26,564 nt of DNA, taken from Deltaproteobacteria bacterium RIFOXYA12_FULL_61_11. GTDB lineage: Bacteria; Bdellovibrionota_F; JAHFAK01; YA12-FULL-61-11. Under the pieces are notes generated by a model, which had not been told where the DNA came from, ran no database searches, and worked only from the letters and a program-made list of their open reading frames with translations. The position numbers and the translations under genes are program-made. The first letter of the stretch is position 1. Each line of letters begins with the position of its first letter. The stretch lies in assembly GCA_001799195.1 (NCBI GenBank), contig MGSU01000235.1, positions 10,386-36,949 on the forward strand. The letters run 5' to 3'. Positions 14,516 through 24,866 of the stretch are shown here, piece by piece.

Positions 14516-14875
14516 ATGCGTCTGTTCATCATCATCCCCATCGCTTTCGGACTGGTCTTCGGCCTGGGTTGTACTCCGAAGCAAGAAGGTGCGGCCACGA
14601 CCACCTGCGCGAAGAAGGATTGTGCCAAGTGCGAGAAATGCGACTGTGGTAAGTCCGACTGCGTCAAATGCCAGAAATGCGACTGCAGTAAATCCGACTG
14701 CCCGAAGTGCCACAAATGCAACTGTGGTAAACCCGATTGCCTCAAGTGCCAGAAATGCGACTGTGGTAAAGCCGACTGCCCGAAGTGCAATCCCCCGGCC
14801 GCTCCAGCCACAACCTCGAACGAATCCACTCCGGTCACCACGCCTCCGGCTGCTCCGGCACCGACCAGCAACTGA
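14516..14875 (+). CDS. Metallothionein-like cysteine-repeat lipoprotein
   Basis: This is a 119-residue lipoprotein. The signal peptide ends in FGLGC, so Cys19 should be lipidated and the protein anchored to a membrane. After a short linker, residues 42-93 are four 13-residue repeats of the form C-x-C-x-K-x-D-C-x-K-C-x-K, and residues 31-41 are a degenerate first half-repeat. The protein has 19 cysteines besides Cys19, many in CxC and CxxC pairs with Lys and Asp between them. This resembles metallothioneins and other soft-metal binders, so metal capture at the cell envelope is the simplest guess. The tail is Pro/Ala/Thr-rich. The ATG at 14516 follows GTGGAGG; an upstream ATG at 14504 would spoil the signal peptide. 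Confidence 0.88.
   Translation: MRLFIIIPIAFGLVFGLGCTPKQEGAATTTCAKKDCAKCEKCDCGKSDCVKCQKCDCSKSDCPKCHKCNCGKPDCLKCQKCDCGKADCPKCNPPAAPATTSNESTPVTTPPAAPAPTSN
14639..14794 (+). repeat. Four 39-bp coding repeats (13-residue Cys units)
   Basis: Four in-frame 39-base units (14639, 14678, 14717, 14756) encode the cysteine repeats. The units differ mostly at third positions and at a few variable residues, so they are old tandem duplications kept by selection. Confidence 0.92.
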
Positions 14876-14992
14876 TCTCCCATCGAGCTATAGCCCCATC
14901 CGCTCCGCACCACAACCACTATCTTCCTCAGTTTTGAACACAGTTTATTATTTATTTATTTGATATTTATTGTATTTAATCGAAAATACTCA

Positions 14993-15008
14993 TGGCACTT
15001 TTTTTGCT
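14993..15008 (+). promoter_or_regulatory. Sigma-54 (RpoN) promoter of the exported ClpP-like protease
   Basis: TGGCAC at 14993-14998 and TTGCT at 15004-15008 match the -24/-12 consensus, with GG and GC exactly 12 bases apart. Transcription should start near 15019, leaving a 28-base leader with GGAGG before the ATG at 15047. Directly upstream is an AT-rich stretch (14935-14990) with an inverted repeat, GTATTT at 14972-14977 and AAATAC at 14984-14989, which could bend DNA or bind IHF. A sigma-54 activator gene lies 1.5 kb away. Confidence 0.85.
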
Positions 15009-15046
15009 TTAAGTGCAAACAACTGTGCTGATGACCTGGAGGTCAC

Positions 15047-15916
15047 ATGTACCGATTCTCCCTTGCCCACCTAGCCCTATCCGCTCTCGGTTTGACCATG
15101 TTGCTTCGCGGGGCTATCGCTGAACCCTTGTTCCCTGGGCAAATCGATGGTTTTGCCGACTCCCGGCGACTGGCCAGGGGAGTAGTCACATTCAAAGGAC
15201 CAGTCGACGAAGCGAGCATTGCGTCGGCCATCGATCGCCTCGAAGTCGTCCTCTCTCTCACCGAGGATAGCAGTACCGATCAAGGCGAGAGTGCATCCCT
15301 CCCTATCAGCGAGGACGGCCGACCGATCATCACCATCGCCATCGATTCACCCGGGGGCTCAGTGAGTGACGGCTTGAAATTCATCAATGAACTGCGTTCG
15401 TTGGAAGAACGCGGCTATGTGGTGCGGACCGTGTGCCTGGCAGAGTGCGCCAGCATGGGTGCGGCTATTCTCGCCGCAGGCACCAAGGGCTATCGCGATG
15501 CGCACTCCAACAGTCGTATTATGCTCCACGCCGCGAGTGCGGGGGTCGAGGGTAAACTGAGCGAGATGACCGAAGGTGTAGGGGAGATGCTCGACAGCGT
15601 AGTCGGCCATCTCTATGAATTTTTGGCCTCACGCATGGACCTCGACCAGCGAACCCTCGTCCACTTCATGGCCAACGACGACGAATGGCTACAGGCCGAA
15701 GACGCAGTGGTCCTTGGCTTAATCGAGCGAATCGACGGAGAAGTCGTCGACAAAGAAGCCCTGTTGACCGAGTACCAGGAGCAACGTTTCCTCCGCCCCG
15801 AAACAGTGCGACGACAGATTTTGGATCTGACCGATAAACTCGGATCCATGAAGCGAAAACTGGTCAGCGTAAAAATTCAACAGGCCTTGCGCGAGCAAGA
15901 AGGAAAACGCCGCTGA
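15047..15916 (+). CDS. Exported ClpP-fold serine protease
   Basis: This 289-residue protein combines a signal peptide (residues 1-25, ending in GAIA) with a ClpP (S14) core. The marks are IDSPGGSVSDGL at 99-110, ECASMGAAILAAGTKG at 133-148 with nucleophile Ser136, and NSRIMLHAAS at 155-164 with His161. By alignment to ClpP (ERDRFLSAPEAVEYGLVD), Asp212 in DDEWLQAEDAVVLGLIE is the likely acid. The segment at 49-95 is extended relative to ClpP and the C-terminal 45 residues are charged and helical. ClpP normally works in the cytoplasm with a Clp ATPase; there is no ATP outside the inner membrane, so this enzyme must act alone or resemble SppA-type peptidases. GGAGG fixes the start. It is driven by a sigma-54 promoter. 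Confidence 0.87.
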   Translation: MYRFSLAHLALSALGLTMLLRGAIAEPLFPGQIDGFADSRRLARGVVTFKGPVDEASIASAIDRLEVVLSLTEDSSTDQGESASLPISEDGRPIITIAIDSPGGSVSDGLKFINELRSLEERGYVVRTVCLAECASMGAAILAAGTKGYRDAHSNSRIMLHAASAGVEGKLSEMTEGVGEMLDSVVGHLYEFLASRMDLDQRTLVHFMANDDEWLQAEDAVVLGLIERIDGEVVDKEALLTEYQEQRFLRPETVRRQILDLTDKLGSMKRKLVSVKIQQALREQEGKRR

Positions 15917-15931: not shown

Positions 15932-16375
15932 TCAGCTCCTCGACACGACGTGTTCGATCACTTCATCCCGTTCTTCGAGCCATGGGTAGAGCAAACTGGC
16001 CTCTTTACGGACATGAGAGGAGAGCAGCAGGAAGAAATCGGCGACCGCACCATCGTCCATGTCCTCCCAACCCTTCTCCGCCTGTCTCACAAGATACGCT
16101 GCTTGTAATTGAAGCACTGCGTGATCGGCTTGCAGAGAAAGAACCAACCGGATCACTTCGAGATTATCGGTCTTGAATAAGGCCGCGGGGAAGAGAAGCC
16201 TCTCCTCCAAATCGAAATGTCGCTCGAGGTCGTTGGTGAAGAACGAGGACATGGTCTGGAAACGTCGGTAGAGTTCCTCGAAGTCCTGCCCATCGATAGC
16301 GAGATCAGTGTACCGCAAGTGGTTGAGCAAGGTTGTGTGGTCTTGTTGTCCCTGAGATAAATTCGTAGAAGCCAT
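15932..16375 (-). CDS. Hemerythrin-like HHE domain protein
   Basis: This is a 147-residue four-helix bundle protein expected to hold a di-iron centre. Candidate ligands are His13 (QDHTTLL), His53 and Glu57 (ERHFDLEERLLFP), His85 (ADHAVLQ), His121 and Glu125 (SSHVRKEASLLYPW). Such proteins bind oxygen or NO, or serve in iron-centre repair as YtfE/RIC does. The ATG at 16375 is chosen because AGGAGG lies just upstream, while an upstream in-frame GTG/ATG lacks one. It follows the sigma-54 activator gene on the same strand after 123 bases and may share its message, and it converges with the ClpP-like gene with only 15 bases between stops. Confidence 0.88.
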   Translation of the reverse strand: MASTNLSQGQQDHTTLLNHLRYTDLAIDGQDFEELYRRFQTMSSFFTNDLERHFDLEERLLFPAALFKTDNLEVIRLVLSLQADHAVLQLQAAYLVRQAEKGWEDMDDGAVADFFLLLSSHVRKEASLLYPWLEERDEVIEHVVSRS

Positions 16376-16398
16376 TGGTCCTCCTACCGCAGGCATCA

Positions 16399-16412
16399 CC
16401 ACCTCCTGGTGG
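16399..16412 (-). other. Small hairpin before hemerythrin ribosome site
   Basis: CCACC (16399-16403) and GGTGG (16408-16412) can pair around a 4-base loop, about 12 bases upstream of AGGAGG. It lies in the gap between the activator gene and the hemerythrin gene and could set their relative expression. It has no T-tract, so it is not a standard terminator. Confidence 0.3.
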
Positions 16413-16498: not shown

Positions 16499-17902
16499 TC
16501 AGCGCAAGCCAAGTTTACGCAACTTGTCGCAAAACGTATTCGGCTTGATTTTGAGGTTCGAAGCTGCCTCGTTGCGCAGCGAAGTCCTGGAAAGTTCTTG
16601 TGCCACAATGTCTCGTTCCAGATCCTGCAAGACAGTTGAGAGACCACGCTGCCGAGCCTCTTCCCAGAGATGCTCGATCATAGCAGGGCCCTCCTCTCCC
16701 AAAGAGCGTGGGTGGCTTCCTACCTGATCGGCTACCGGGAGATCCTCAGGGCACAAGGTACTCCCTCTCGCCTTGATGAAGAGGAACTCGATCACGCTGC
16801 GCAATTCACGGACATTTCCCTCCCAGGGCATGTTCTTGAAACGTTCGAGGAGTTCTGGTGCCGCCGAACGGACCTGCTTGCCATGACGAACAACGAGTTC
16901 ACCGAGGAATTCCTTGACCAAGAGCGGGATATCCTCTCGCCGATCCCGAAGAGCAGGCAGTACGATGGGGTAGACGTGTAAGCGCCAGAAGAGGTCCCGC
17001 CGAAACGTTCCCTTTGCTATGAGTTGTTCGAGGTTCTGGTTGGTTGCGGAGATCAGTCGGAAGCGCGAATGGACCAATTTCGTGCCGCCTAAGCGACAGA
17101 ATTCTCTTTCCTGCAACACTCTGAGCAGCTTGACCTGCACTTCTAACGAAAGCTCGCCGATCTCGTCGAGGAAGAGGTCTCCACCATGGGCCATCTCGAG
17201 ACAACCGATCTTGCGTTGGTTGGCCCCAGTGAACGCGCCGCGTTCATAACCGAACAGTTCGCTTTCGATCAAGGTTGCCGGTATCGCGGCACAATTGACC
17301 GCAATGAATGGCCGACGACCATTGCGCGCTATCTCCCGATGAATGGCGCGCGCAATGACTTCCTTGCCGCTGCCCGTCGGACCGGTAATCAGGACCGAAG
17401 TGTCGGGGAAGGAAGCCAACTCGGCAACCTGGTCGAGGATCTTGGTCATGGCGAGACTCGAACCAATGATGCGCCCCGGTCTGCTGGAAACGTGGCGGAG
17501 GATCTCTTCCTGCACCTCTCGTTCTGTGGTTTTCGCCCTGAGTTCGGAGGCAAGGGTCAACTGCAGCCGTACTTCATCGATTCGGTAAGGTTTTCGCAAA
17601 TAACCCGCTGCACCCAACCGAACGCAATCCCTGACCGAGCGTAAGGACTCCTCAGCCGTGGTCATCAGACACACGATCGAGGGGTCTCGCTCTTTCAGCC
17701 AACGAAGGAATTCAATGCCATCGCAATCTCCCGGCAGGTGGATATCCAGCACCGCCAGATCGATCGCGTGGCTCTCGACCAAGGTTCGAGCTTCTTCCGC
17801 ATTGGTAGCATGGAGAAAGCGGTACTCACCCGTGAGCGCTTGCAGGACTCGCTCTACCGTCATCCGATCGTCTTCGAGCAGCAATACTTGGTATTCCGAC
17901 AT
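16499..17902 (-). CDS. NtrC-family sigma-54-dependent response regulator
   Basis: This 467-residue regulator has a receiver domain (residues 1-120; phosphorylation site Asp53 in AVLDIHLPG, Lys104 in LRKPY), a sigma-54-contacting AAA+ domain and a Fis-type helix-turn-helix at the C-terminus. In the AAA+ domain, Walker A GPTGSGKE is at 174-181, the sigma-54 loop GAFTGA at 222-227 and Walker B GGDLFLDE at 240-247. All elements needed for activation of sigma-54 polymerase are present. The HTH lies in the last 30 residues (NEAASNLKIKPNTFCDKLRKLG). No sensor kinase gene is in the window, so the regulator is an orphan here. The ATG at 17902 starts the domain sharply after a G-rich site; a longer ATG at 17941 is unlikely because it would lie inside the promoter. 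Confidence 0.96.
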   Translation of the reverse strand: MSEYQVLLLEDDRMTVERVLQALTGEYRFLHATNAEEARTLVESHAIDLAVLDIHLPGDCDGIEFLRWLKERDPSIVCLMTTAEESLRSVRDCVRLGAAGYLRKPYRIDEVRLQLTLASELRAKTTEREVQEEILRHVSSRPGRIIGSSLAMTKILDQVAELASFPDTSVLITGPTGSGKEVIARAIHREIARNGRRPFIAVNCAAIPATLIESELFGYERGAFTGANQRKIGCLEMAHGGDLFLDEIGELSLEVQVKLLRVLQEREFCRLGGTKLVHSRFRLISATNQNLEQLIAKGTFRRDLFWRLHVYPIVLPALRDRREDIPLLVKEFLGELVVRHGKQVRSAAPELLERFKNMPWEGNVRELRSVIEFLFIKARGSTLCPEDLPVADQVGSHPRSLGEEGPAMIEHLWEEARQRGLSTVLQDLERDIVAQELSRTSLRNEAASNLKIKPNTFCDKLRKLGLR

Positions 17903-17935: not shown

Positions 17936-17952
17936 TAGCAAACCTCTTACCA
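17936..17952 (-). promoter_or_regulatory. Sigma-54-type promoter of the NtrC-family regulator
   Basis: On the minus strand the sequence reads TGGTAAG, four bases, TTGCT. GG (17951-17950) and GC (17939-17938) are 12 apart as required. The -12 part is perfect; the -24 part matches five of seven consensus bases. The predicted start of transcription (about 17926) leaves a leader of about 24 bases. A sigma-54 activator with its own sigma-54 promoter suggests positive autoregulation. Confidence 0.65.
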
Positions 17953-18246: not shown

Positions 18247-18654
18247 ATGTTGCTCGAACGCCTGCTCAGACTCCAGGAAGAACTCGACACCCTCTTCACC
18301 CGTCCGGGCGCGGATCCCATGGTATACGGCAACCGCGCCTATCCTCCGGTCAATTGGTTCGAACGCGAGGATGCCCACGTCCTGACCACAGAACTCCCCG
18401 GCTTCGCCAAACAAGACGTCAAAGTCGAGGTCAAGGGGAACGTGCTCAACATCACCGGCAAACGCAATTCCGGGATCGAGGAAGGGTACGGCTTCCATCG
18501 CCGAGAACGCGGCTACGGCACCTTCTCGAGACAATTGAACCTCCCCCGCGAGGTCGATGCCGAGAGCATCAAGGCAAGTCTCCAGGATGGCGTGCTGACC
18601 ATCCAGTTCGAGAAACTCGCCCAAGCTCGCACCAAACAGATCACCATTGCTTGA
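18247..18654 (+). CDS. Small heat shock protein Hsp20, copy 1
   Basis: This 135-residue ATP-independent holdase binds unfolding proteins and keeps them soluble. The alpha-crystallin domain runs from about residue 33 to 125, with the marks TELPGFAKQDVKVEV at 47-61 and the A-x-x-x-x-G-V-L box (ASLQDGVLTI) near 110-119. The C-terminal anchor motif I-x-I is present as ITI just before the end. The N-terminal arm is short (about 32 residues). A strong AAGGAAGGAGGA site precedes the ATG. It is first of three tandem Hsp20 genes, 16 bases before copy 2. Confidence 0.95.
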   Translation: MLLERLLRLQEELDTLFTRPGADPMVYGNRAYPPVNWFEREDAHVLTTELPGFAKQDVKVEVKGNVLNITGKRNSGIEEGYGFHRRERGYGTFSRQLNLPREVDAESIKASLQDGVLTIQFEKLAQARTKQITIA

Positions 18655-18670: not shown

Positions 18671-19066
18671 ATGCCCACGAACAACATCGAGATCCACGAG
18701 AAGAAAGAGTTACGGGACCGCGCGGAGACGACCTACTCCTGCAAGGTGTACACCCCGCAGGTAGACATCTGCGAGAAAGAAGACCACCTGCTGCTGGTCG
18801 CCGACCTCCCCGGCGTGACTCGCGAGGACGTCCAACTCCACCTCGACAACCAGGTTCTCACCCTCGAGGGCAAGATCCGACCGGAACGTTACGAAGGCCT
18901 GACTCCGCGCTCCGTCGAATACAATGTCGGGCATTTCCGCCGCGAATTTACTCTGGGCGCGGACATCGACCAGGAGAAGATCAGTGCGGCCATGGCTGAT
19001 GGCGTGCTGCGCCTGACCCTGCCCAAGGTTGAAAAGGCAAAACCCAGGAGTATCGAGATCCGCTGA
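18671..19066 (+). CDS. Small heat shock protein Hsp20, copy 2
   Basis: This is the second Hsp20, 131 residues, clearly diverged from its neighbours. The alpha-crystallin domain spans about residues 32-125, with VADLPGVTREDVQLHL and AMADGVLRLTLPK as the family marks, and the I-x-I anchor is IEI at the end. The N-terminal arm is charged (NNIEIHEKKELRDRAET). The start at 18671 is set by AGGAGGA; an upstream in-frame ATG at 18647 lies inside copy 1. It should be co-transcribed with copy 1 and may form mixed oligomers with it. Confidence 0.95.
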   Translation: MPTNNIEIHEKKELRDRAETTYSCKVYTPQVDICEKEDHLLLVADLPGVTREDVQLHLDNQVLTLEGKIRPERYEGLTPRSVEYNVGHFRREFTLGADIDQEKISAAMADGVLRLTLPKVEKAKPRSIEIR

Positions 19067-19141: not shown

Positions 19142-19510
19142 ATGTTCTCCAGCCCACGCCCCCTTCGAGGACGAACCGACGAGAACGATTACTCACCTCC
19201 CGTCGACGTCAAGGACACGGGCCGGGGGTACGAACTGATCGCGGAACTTCCGGGAGTACGCCGCGAGGACGTGACCATCGAGGTCGAGGGCGATAGGCTC
19301 GTCCTGCGGGGCGAGAAGCATCTCGAACAACGTATCGAAGGCTTCGACTACCTGAGGGTCGAACGCCGCTCCGGTCCCTTCCACCGAGTGTACCAACTGC
19401 CCAAGGATGCCGACAGCTCCTCGATCACCGCCACCTTCGAGCTCGGCCTGCTCAAGGTGACCATTCCCCGTAAAGTCCAGGTCCTAGGCCGTGCCATTCC
19501 TGTGCGTTGA
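19142..19510 (+). CDS. Small heat shock protein Hsp20, copy 3
   Basis: This is the third Hsp20, 122 residues, the shortest. The alpha-crystallin domain covers about residues 18-112, with AELPGVRREDVTIEVEGDRLVLRG near 34-57. The usual A-x-x-x-x-G-V-L box reads ATFELGLLKVTIPR, with Leu in place of Val. The end carries a variant I-x-V anchor (AIPVR). The N-terminal arm is very short, which often limits oligomer size or substrate range. GAGGGAG lies before the ATG. A lipoprotein gene follows on the same strand. Confidence 0.94.
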   Translation: MFSSPRPLRGRTDENDYSPPVDVKDTGRGYELIAELPGVRREDVTIEVEGDRLVLRGEKHLEQRIEGFDYLRVERRSGPFHRVYQLPKDADSSSITATFELGLLKVTIPRKVQVLGRAIPVR

Positions 19511-21539: not shown

Positions 21540-24500
21540 TCAGAGCCCCAGATCGTCGATGACGAGGTCGTCGACGTAGAAGCCGTCATAGACCACGCTG
21601 ACATCAGTCCAGAGACGGAAGCGCAGCAACAACTCGAAGCTCACATAGGCCTGTAGATCATACTCCCGGGGAGACCAAACGTCCTGGTTGCCGATAATGA
21701 TGTCCAATTCCTCCCAGGTCGCCCCGCCATCCCGGGATAGCTCGAGATAGACAAAGTCGCAGCAGTGTTCAAAGTACCAATGTGCATAGAAGCTCAATCG
21801 CGGGTTAAGGGCTAGGGTCAGGTCGACCGGGGTGAGCAGAGTCATGGCATCGTTGCGCTCACTCCCGTAGGTGCCATCGGGCGAATCGCAGTAGGAGAAG
21901 GTGCCGCCGAACGGGACTTGGTCCGTGAGGCCCCAAGTGCCGCCGAAGTCCCACGACACCTCGGTCTCAGCGTCGGCCCGGAAAAGGATCTGCCCATACG
22001 CAATAGGTGCAGGGAGAACCTGCACCTGCACCGCGGCAAAGCCCTGGTTGCCCTTGGCATCGGCTGCCTGCAGCATGATCTCGTGTTGACCGGGGCTGAG
22101 CGTGGTCACCTCCAGCATAGCGCCGGTGCCGAGGAAGCCGTCCAAGCTGGAGTACCAACCCAGTGCAGCCTCATCGAGCTGCCCGTCGACGTCGTCGACC
22201 GCCTGACCGGCGAGCAGTACCGCGTCGCCCTGGGTCACGGCCAAGGGTTCAGCAGGAGAGGTGATGGTGACCACCGGCGGGACCTCGTCGAGGTAGTCCA
22301 CGATCTCGAGGTTGAGGCTTGCCGAGGCTTCATTGCCCAGGCTGTCCCGGGCGAACAGGGAGATCAGGTGCAGACCGAGGTCGAGCGTGTCGAGGGTCAG
22401 GTCCGCGCCGCTGCCGAGCGCGCCGTCGAGGTCCGAGGTCCACCACAGGGAAAGTCCCGAGAGCATACCGTCCTCCGGATCCCAGGCCTGCCCGGAGAGG
22501 TTCACCGCTTCGCCTTGGACCACGCGCGCGCCCCAGGGCGGGTTCAAAATGGTCACCTGCGGCGAACTGTCGCCTCCGCAACCGAGAGGCGTGCCGATCG
22601 TCGAGGTGTCCTCGGGGTGGTAGCCGAATCTGTTGACCGGCTGGATGACCTCGCCGTCAAGCTCCAGCACCGTCCACAGCGTGGAGGGAATCTCCTCGGG
22701 CATGTAATAGGTGGCAAACAGGCTCTGGTCGACGTAGACCTCAACCTTGGCGCCCGAGGCTGCCATGTTCAGGGAAGGGATGCTACTACGGTTGGTGAAG
22801 TCGTGCACCAGATAGGTATAGGTGCCCGACAGACGCCTCAGGATGGTGATGGTCTCAGGTCCGTAGCTCGAGGTGTCGTCAACGTCGAGGTTGGCGTGGG
22901 GATACACGTCCTCGTTGGTGCCCCGATCACTGTAATAGATATGAGCATAATCGCAGAGCCCGCCCCCCTCGGAGGGCACGATCAGGTGGCTGTCCAGGTC
23001 TGACGGAGTCTCACCCCAGGTGAGGACCAAGCGGACCTGGCCCTGTTCCAGATTCTGTTCCCCGGAGACCGGCGAGATGGTCACATTCTGGTTGGCTCGG
23101 TCCTCCTCGCCGACGATGAGGACATCGAAATAGTTAGTGACAAAGCCCTCCAAGCGAGCCTCAACCGAATACACACCGGCCTCGAGCTGGGCGAACCAGG
23201 TGCCGTCGGGCTGGGAAGCGGTGCTCAACACGACCTCGCCGACCGTGGTGCCGTAACCCGGGCGAAAATCTAGTGCGCAGTTGTCCACACCCTGACCGGT
23301 CACCGCGTTGATGACCCGACCCGAGGCTGCGCCCGGACCGAGGTGCAGTTCGTCAATGACTAGGAAGGTTTGCAAGGTGGTCATCTGGTTGCCCACGACC
23401 AGAACGCGAGCCTGCTCGGCGCGGTACCCCTCTTTCTCGAACTGCAGGAAATACACTCCGGCGGGCAGACTCAAGCGATACGAACCATCCTCGGCAGTCT
23501 CGGAGAAATCGACCAATTGTCCCGAGCCGTCCCGGATCAGGAGGTTCACCCCGGCCAGTGCACCGCCATCGACTGCGTCCCGGATCTTACCCTCGACGAA
23601 GCCCCGGACCACAGTAGCGGCACTGGCGACCTCGACCACGACTTGCCCACGGACCATGCCGTGAACGTTGGTTACCTCGACCTCCACCGTGTAGAAACCT
23701 TCGTTCACCGGCGCGGTGTAGGTCGTGAAGTTGGCGTTCTCTTGTCCAACCTGACCGCCCTCTGCTTCCACCACGCTGAACAAGTAGTTCAGGCCACTGC
23801 CCGAGGGATCATGAGCCAGGACCCGAATCTCTGCCGAAGCTCCGGGGGAAACGGTGAAGGGCTGGGCGACCATGCTGGTGATGAGCGGCAACGGTGCAGT
23901 TTCCTGCCCGGGTTCACCCTGCGGTCCCATCGGGCCCATCTCGCCCTGCGGACCAACCAACCCCATTTCGCCTTGCGGACCTTGTTCCCCAGATATACCA
24001 TCCGCGCCGTCATTCCCGGTCAGGCCATGACAGAGGTACTCCCGACGGAGTATCTCACCGTCCTGGAGCAGCCCGTCGTCGGCCTCGCCGCCACCGGAGC
24101 CGTCATCCTTGCCGCTCACCAACTCGTATCCGCCGGCCGAGCAGAGATCTTCTGACTCGAGCGGACGTACCTCGATGAGGGTATCGTAGAGCCTGACGGC
24201 CGCGGCGCCGTCGCGCCAGCCAAGCAGCCAACTCTCGCCATTACAGTACCAGTACTCGGTGGGCTCCACGTCGTCGAGTTCATAGTACGCGAGGAGGTTG
24301 GACTTGCCGCAAGCCAGATCCTCGAGCTCGGCCTTGGCGAGCACACCCTGGTAGGTTAGGACGGCGCCCGACTGTCCCTTCTCGCCCTGGCAGTCCAGAT
24401 AGTTGTAACTGTCGTCGCCATTGATGTCCTCATTGGCGTCCTTACGACCATTGCCGTTGAGGTCCCAGCAGGACAAGCCGTCTCGGCCGCGTAGCAACTC

Positions 24501-24866
24501 CACCCGCGTCTCGACCTCCTCTTCGTCGATTTGGGCGAGCAACTTGTAAACACCGGGGACGACCTCACTCGGCAAACGCAGGCGGACCTCACCCTCATCG
24601 AGGAAATCCACCTCCAGGGGGATGCGCTCACCGCTCTCATTGACGAGAAAGACTTTGATATCCGATTGAAAATTCTTCCCATACAGGATCAAGCCGTCGT
24701 AGAGTGCGGCTTCATTCGAGGGGTCGTTCCCGAGTATCCGCTCGATGACCAGGGTCGTTTCCGCCCCCTCCGCATCTTTCCCACTCGGTTCTGTACCCTG
24801 AAATTCCCAGGTGCAACCCAAGTTCGCGAGCACGAAAAACGCGAAGCCCACCATTACCCTTGTCAT
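21540..24866 (-). CDS. Large multidomain lipoprotein with collagen-like region
   Basis: This is an 1108-residue surface lipoprotein. The signal ends in ANLGC, so Cys18 is lipidated. Regions in order: IPT/TIG-like (about 38-128); an acidic Asp/Asn-rich loop of dockerin/EF-hand style (DLNGNGRKDANEDINGDD, 135-152); short collagen-like triplets (161-169); 14 uninterrupted Gly-X-Y triplets (281-322); an Ig/PKD-like domain (327-415); two CarboxypepD_reg-like domains (422-505 and 512-600); a DUF2135/YfaP-like domain (610-745, opening TWGETPSDLDSHL); two Ig-like repeats (768-856 and 864-951); and a final jelly-roll-like region with a MAM or immune-inhibitor-A look (960-1108). No catalytic site was seen, so adhesion or surface structure is likely. 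GAGGAGG sets the ATG at 24866; longer in-frame starts reach into the next gene. Confidence 0.88.
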   Translation of the reverse strand: MTRVMVGFAFFVLANLGCTWEFQGTEPSGKDAEGAETTLVIERILGNDPSNEAALYDGLILYGKNFQSDIKVFLVNESGERIPLEVDFLDEGEVRLRLPSEVVPGVYKLLAQIDEEEVETRVELLRGRDGLSCWDLNGNGRKDANEDINGDDSYNYLDCQGEKGQSGAVLTYQGVLAKAELEDLACGKSNLLAYYELDDVEPTEYWYCNGESWLLGWRDGAAAVRLYDTLIEVRPLESEDLCSAGGYELVSGKDDGSGGGEADDGLLQDGEILRREYLCHGLTGNDGADGISGEQGPQGEMGLVGPQGEMGPMGPQGEPGQETAPLPLITSMVAQPFTVSPGASAEIRVLAHDPSGSGLNYLFSVVEAEGGQVGQENANFTTYTAPVNEGFYTVEVEVTNVHGMVRGQVVVEVASAATVVRGFVEGKIRDAVDGGALAGVNLLIRDGSGQLVDFSETAEDGSYRLSLPAGVYFLQFEKEGYRAEQARVLVVGNQMTTLQTFLVIDELHLGPGAASGRVINAVTGQGVDNCALDFRPGYGTTVGEVVLSTASQPDGTWFAQLEAGVYSVEARLEGFVTNYFDVLIVGEEDRANQNVTISPVSGEQNLEQGQVRLVLTWGETPSDLDSHLIVPSEGGGLCDYAHIYYSDRGTNEDVYPHANLDVDDTSSYGPETITILRRLSGTYTYLVHDFTNRSSIPSLNMAASGAKVEVYVDQSLFATYYMPEEIPSTLWTVLELDGEVIQPVNRFGYHPEDTSTIGTPLGCGGDSSPQVTILNPPWGARVVQGEAVNLSGQAWDPEDGMLSGLSLWWTSDLDGALGSGADLTLDTLDLGLHLISLFARDSLGNEASASLNLEIVDYLDEVPPVVTITSPAEPLAVTQGDAVLLAGQAVDDVDGQLDEAALGWYSSLDGFLGTGAMLEVTTLSPGQHEIMLQAADAKGNQGFAAVQVQVLPAPIAYGQILFRADAETEVSWDFGGTWGLTDQVPFGGTFSYCDSPDGTYGSERNDAMTLLTPVDLTLALNPRLSFYAHWYFEHCCDFVYLELSRDGGATWEELDIIIGNQDVWSPREYDLQAYVSFELLLRFRLWTDVSVVYDGFYVDDLVIDDLGL
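23901..24026 (-). repeat. Collagen-like Gly-X-Y repeat, 14 triplets
   Basis: Encodes residues 281-322 of the large lipoprotein. Triplets such as GEQ, GPQ, GEM and GEP, with Pro in X or acidic residues, are typical of bacterial collagen-like stalks. Confidence 0.92.

Follow-up and report, generated by a model that had tools for sequence, protein, structure and literature searches.

The pspA gene is a textbook sigma-54 gene, and the divergent pspF/pspA pair is a known arrangement. Among envelope peptidases of the ClpP fold, SppA uses a Ser-Lys dyad. Francke et al. (2011; PMC3162934) proposed that sigma-54 controls the exterior of the bacterial cell, argued that this role is general, and laid stress on how polysaccharide, flagella, lipid and peptidoglycan components are made and transported. 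Here, we describe a very probable sigma-54 promoter and the predicted exported ClpP-like peptidase gene behind it, found in a 26,564-nt window (the whole stretch of DNA analysed) from the genome of Deltaproteobacteria bacterium RIFOXYA12_FULL_61_11 (4.64 Mb in 342 contigs, 87% complete). The features of the locus are:

14936-14992, + strand: A+T-rich stretch directly 5' of the promoter (76% A+T over 80 bases)
14993-15008, + strand: very probable sigma-54 (-24/-12) promoter, expected transcript start near 15019
15038-15043, + strand: Shine-Dalgarno-like GGAGGT
15047-15916, + strand: ClpP-like serine peptidase gene, predicted exported, 289 aa, over the Pfam CLP_protease cut-off
15932-16402, - strand: hemerythrin-domain gene, between the ClpP-like gene and the regulator
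16499-17902, - strand: NtrC-type response regulator with a receiver and a sigma-54 activator AAA+ domain with GAFTGA
17937-17952, - strand: weaker sigma-54 candidate (TGGTAAGAGGTTTGCT), 34 nt upstream of the ATG of the regulator

By inspection of the sequence, the element reads TGGCAC-N5-TTGCT (TGGCACTTTTTTTGCT), with GG at 14994-14995, GC at 15006-15007 and ten bases in between. It thus has the RpoN spacing given by the initial annotation, and agrees exactly with the sigma-54 consensus TGGCAC-N5-TTGCW, GG-N10-GC included. The gap to the ATG of the intact ClpP-like gene (15047) is 38 nt, and the good ribosome site claimed for this gene is present as the GGAGGT just before that ATG. No other exact motif match occurs in the window; allowing two mismatches gives 8 matches against 9.1 expected, so that looser matches are at chance level and only the exact one is informative. 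When the 171-bp intergenic region here was dinucleotide-shuffled 100,000 times, an exact + strand match arose 17 times. No enhancer dyad of 6 or more was found at enhancer distance upstream of the element. A hairpin (TGACC-TGGA-GGTCA, 15030-15049, + strand) spans the ribosome site, with a stability no greater than that of shuffles (z -0.5), and a search of RNA families gave no match. The gene upstream (14516-14875, + strand) encodes a small predicted lipoprotein with repeated Cys/Lys-rich units (CAKCEKCDCGKSDCVKCQKCDC...) and no Pfam match. A+T-rich DNA also precedes two other exact sites in the genome, at L003 1-800 and L008 900-1520 (both - strand; 74-80% A+T upstream), which stand before uncharacterised exported proteins; they resemble the site described here and are possibly co-regulated with it.

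Genome-wide, the exact motif has 8 matches and a reversed control pattern also has 8, so its abundance is uninformative and the informative part is placement: 7 of the 8 exact matches are intergenic, correctly directed and followed by a start codon at 34-89 nt, whereas none of the 8 reversed controls is so placed. A position matrix applied to 0.79 Mb gave 18 promoter-positioned sites at a threshold of at least 13 bits, while the reversed matrix gave none and six column-permuted matrices gave 0, 6, 0, 0, 0 and 0; this sample was partly picked via contigs with motif matches, and site density is therefore not interpreted, while site positions are unaffected by contig choice. A second sample consisted mostly of contigs outside the listed motif matches, and its low site density arises by construction and is not evidence. 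Distances from sigma-54 sites to start codons cluster at 29-50 nt. One further exact site (L097 11526-12454 / contig C44 10659-11090) precedes the gene of an uncharacterised protein of 292 aa; the divergently oriented gene beside it is activator-like, with a partial AAA match.

The genome encodes one intact RpoN, whose first region is canonical and whose RpoN box reads ARRTVAKYRE, and rpoN is also present in the phylum's only other genome here. A positive control comes from the pspA of the same genome (over the NCBIfam cut-off), whose ATG lies 39 nt after the site TGGCACGGGAGATGCT and which adjoins a divergent activator gene:

L121 6859-7591 and contig C297 7731-8219: pspA and a pspF-like activator in divergent orientation, with a sigma-54 site

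Two other readings of the element were weighed. The motif may have arisen by chance, with the housekeeping sigma factor transcribing the gene from the upstream A+T-rich stretch; this would fit the equal motif counts of pattern and reversed control, and a 9-of-12 sigma-70-like sequence, TTGATA-N16-GAAAAT, does lie at 14960-14987. However, its -10 is poor, sigma-70-like sites are about as frequent as chance predicts (2 against 1.8 expected), and both the placement statistics and the shuffles speak against chance, making this reading improbable. Still less probable, to the point of being very unlikely, is a repressor operator formed by TGGCACTT and AAGTGCAA (14993-15018), an imperfect inverted repeat of 8-base arms with one mismatch and a 10-base gap: dyads of equal quality occur in the other two scanned regions, and an operator leaves the exact -24/-12 match and its placement unexplained. 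Because placement separates the motif from its controls and pspA has the same layout, a working sigma-54 promoter is the most likely reading. The promoter proposed by the initial annotation thus holds up on the exact motif, its placement and the presence of RpoN; judged from sequence, the site is very probably real, and we consider it highly likely that the gene for the 289-aa, predicted exported ClpP-like peptidase is transcribed from this canonical promoter. RpoN-bound RNA polymerase would sit on TGGCAC/TTGCT as a closed complex until an AAA+ activator opened it on a signal; the response regulator encoded 1.5 kb downstream may be that activator. The resulting transcript would start near 15019, and the ClpP-like gene would belong to this genome's group of sigma-54-led genes, most of which encode exported proteins.

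A narrower form of this sigma-54 explanation makes the adjacent regulator the specific activator of the promoter, so that regulator, hemerythrin protein and ClpP-like peptidase would form a local module. An activator gene had been noted 1.5 kb away, which is correct for the regulator's 3' end at 16499; its start codon is about 2.9 kb from the promoter if translation begins at the ATG at 17902, a longer TTG start at 17941 being less likely. The regulator is intact (receiver aspartate, GPTGSGKE and GAFTGA present), with a C-terminal Fis-like helix-turn-helix recognised by eye and not reported by Pfam at E 0.001. Autoregulation through its own candidate sigma-54 site is possible, as is an operon in which the hemerythrin-domain gene lies behind it. 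An activator within 3 kb is found for 6 of 17 sigma-54-led genes and 39 of 286 other leader genes (p = 0.027), a borderline value that depends on the distance picked (p = 0.05-0.06 at 2 and 4 kb). Against a dedicated pairing, the genome has 32 matches to the sigma-54 activator domain, about 25-30 of which are real activators, the upstream regions of the promoter and the regulator share no enhancer beyond one 8-mer, and no partner kinase was recognised among the neighbouring genes scanned. Given this number of activators, the modest enrichment and the lack of a shared enhancer, the regulator is a plausible activator of the promoter, and the local module is best held as a tentative reading, at somewhat less than even probability. 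A PrsR-type PEP-CTERM regulator was rejected as its identity (294.5 bits against a cut-off of 502.6). Beside the regulator lie three HSP20 small heat-shock protein genes in tandem (18247-18654, 18671-19066 and 19142-19510, + strand), and further along the window a very long predicted protein (21540-24866, - strand) matches collagen-like adhesin models and, weakly, a T9SS type A sorting domain (24.7 bits, cut-off 23).

The ClpP-like protein matches PF00574 (CLP_protease; 78.7 bits, cut-off 20.2) and no other Pfam family, and solved ClpP structures are matched at E 4e-17. Ser136, His161 and Asp212 align with the ClpP catalytic residues; the score against the ClpP equivalog model TIGR00493 is 73.4 bits, far under its cut-off of 308.6. 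A signal peptide ending AIA-EP is predicted (by eye and a crude rule), which argues against cytoplasmic work with a Clp/Hsp100 unfoldase. The description as an exported ClpP-like protein is therefore upheld in its homology and catalytic residues and, as a prediction, in its export. A charged C-terminal tail of about 60 residues is predicted to be helical by a single-sequence structure model of low confidence (mean pLDDT 42.7), too poor for use as a fold. A separate canonical ClpP is encoded in the genome (L063), and one paralogue of the 289-aa protein lies elsewhere in it:

L062 1477-2661, - strand: paralogue, ClpP-like and predicted exported, carrying a long N-terminal insert

The paralogue is 40% identical over the alignment and shares the C-terminal tail and the cysteine pair Cys130 and Cys134. 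A signal peptide is predicted for it as well, and no good sigma-54 site was found upstream of it. No orthologue of the ClpP-like gene was found in GTDB contigs, viral sequences, 386 genomes or the phylum's one other genome, in scans that relied on a handful of exact peptide words or on a score threshold and may overlook distant relatives; the other matches inspected were canonical ClpPs with no export signal. The exported pair looks like a lineage-restricted peptidase family that merits biochemical study, and it is more unusual than the promoter before one of its members. That the 289-aa protein acts in the envelope without an ATP-driven unfoldase, using its ClpP catalytic residues within a sigma-54 envelope response run by the neighbouring regulator, in a phylum of which hardly any member has been studied, is a fuller picture that we regard as rather unlikely in its entirety.

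Control of an envelope enzyme by sigma-54 had been called unusual, which was not borne out in this genome. Export was called by a crude hydrophobicity rule for signal peptides and lipoprotein signals, not by SignalP, and the comparison set of leader genes comprises genes with room for a promoter. By this crude rule, the first sample has 18 sigma-54-led genes, of which 13 look exported, compared with 98 among 314 leader genes (p = 3e-4); in the pooled samples the figures are 14/19 and 192/541 (about 70% vs about 35%, p = 6e-4), and a genome-wide set from a relaxed pattern gives 10/14 (p = 0.007). Among the targets are two lipoproteins, one a cupredoxin and one with a CAP domain, as well as two calcineurin-like phosphoesterases and a thrombospondin/laminin-G protein; many more are unknown exported proteins. 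Exported targets are thus the majority among sigma-54-led genes, making the arrangement of the ClpP-like gene normal in this genome, and control of the exterior by sigma-54 has been argued to be general (PMC3162934).

A canonical sigma-54 signal can therefore be read in a barely sampled phylum, represented here by two genomes, and its mostly exported targets fit the idea that sigma-54 governs the cell exterior. As in that proposal (PMC3162934), exported proteins and lipoproteins are over-represented among the products of sigma-54-led genes; unlike its emphasis, the targets here are mostly uncharacterised exported proteins. Like known sigma-54 systems, this genome encodes RpoN and NtrC-family activators, with the site 38 nt before a start codon, whereas the locus differs from the usual systems in having no recognisable enhancer and a ClpP-like exported protein as its target. 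Compared with ClpP (PF00574, MEROPS S14), the 289-aa protein keeps SPGG, ASMGAA and the Ser136/His161/Asp212 set, but it has a predicted signal peptide, a divergent N-terminal part, a tail predicted to be helical, and ECASMG where ClpP has GQAASMG. It resembles SppA and other envelope ClpP-fold peptidases in having a ClpP-like domain that would act outside the cytoplasm, and unlike SppA it retains the ClpP-type Ser-His-Asp set and matches PF00574 alone.
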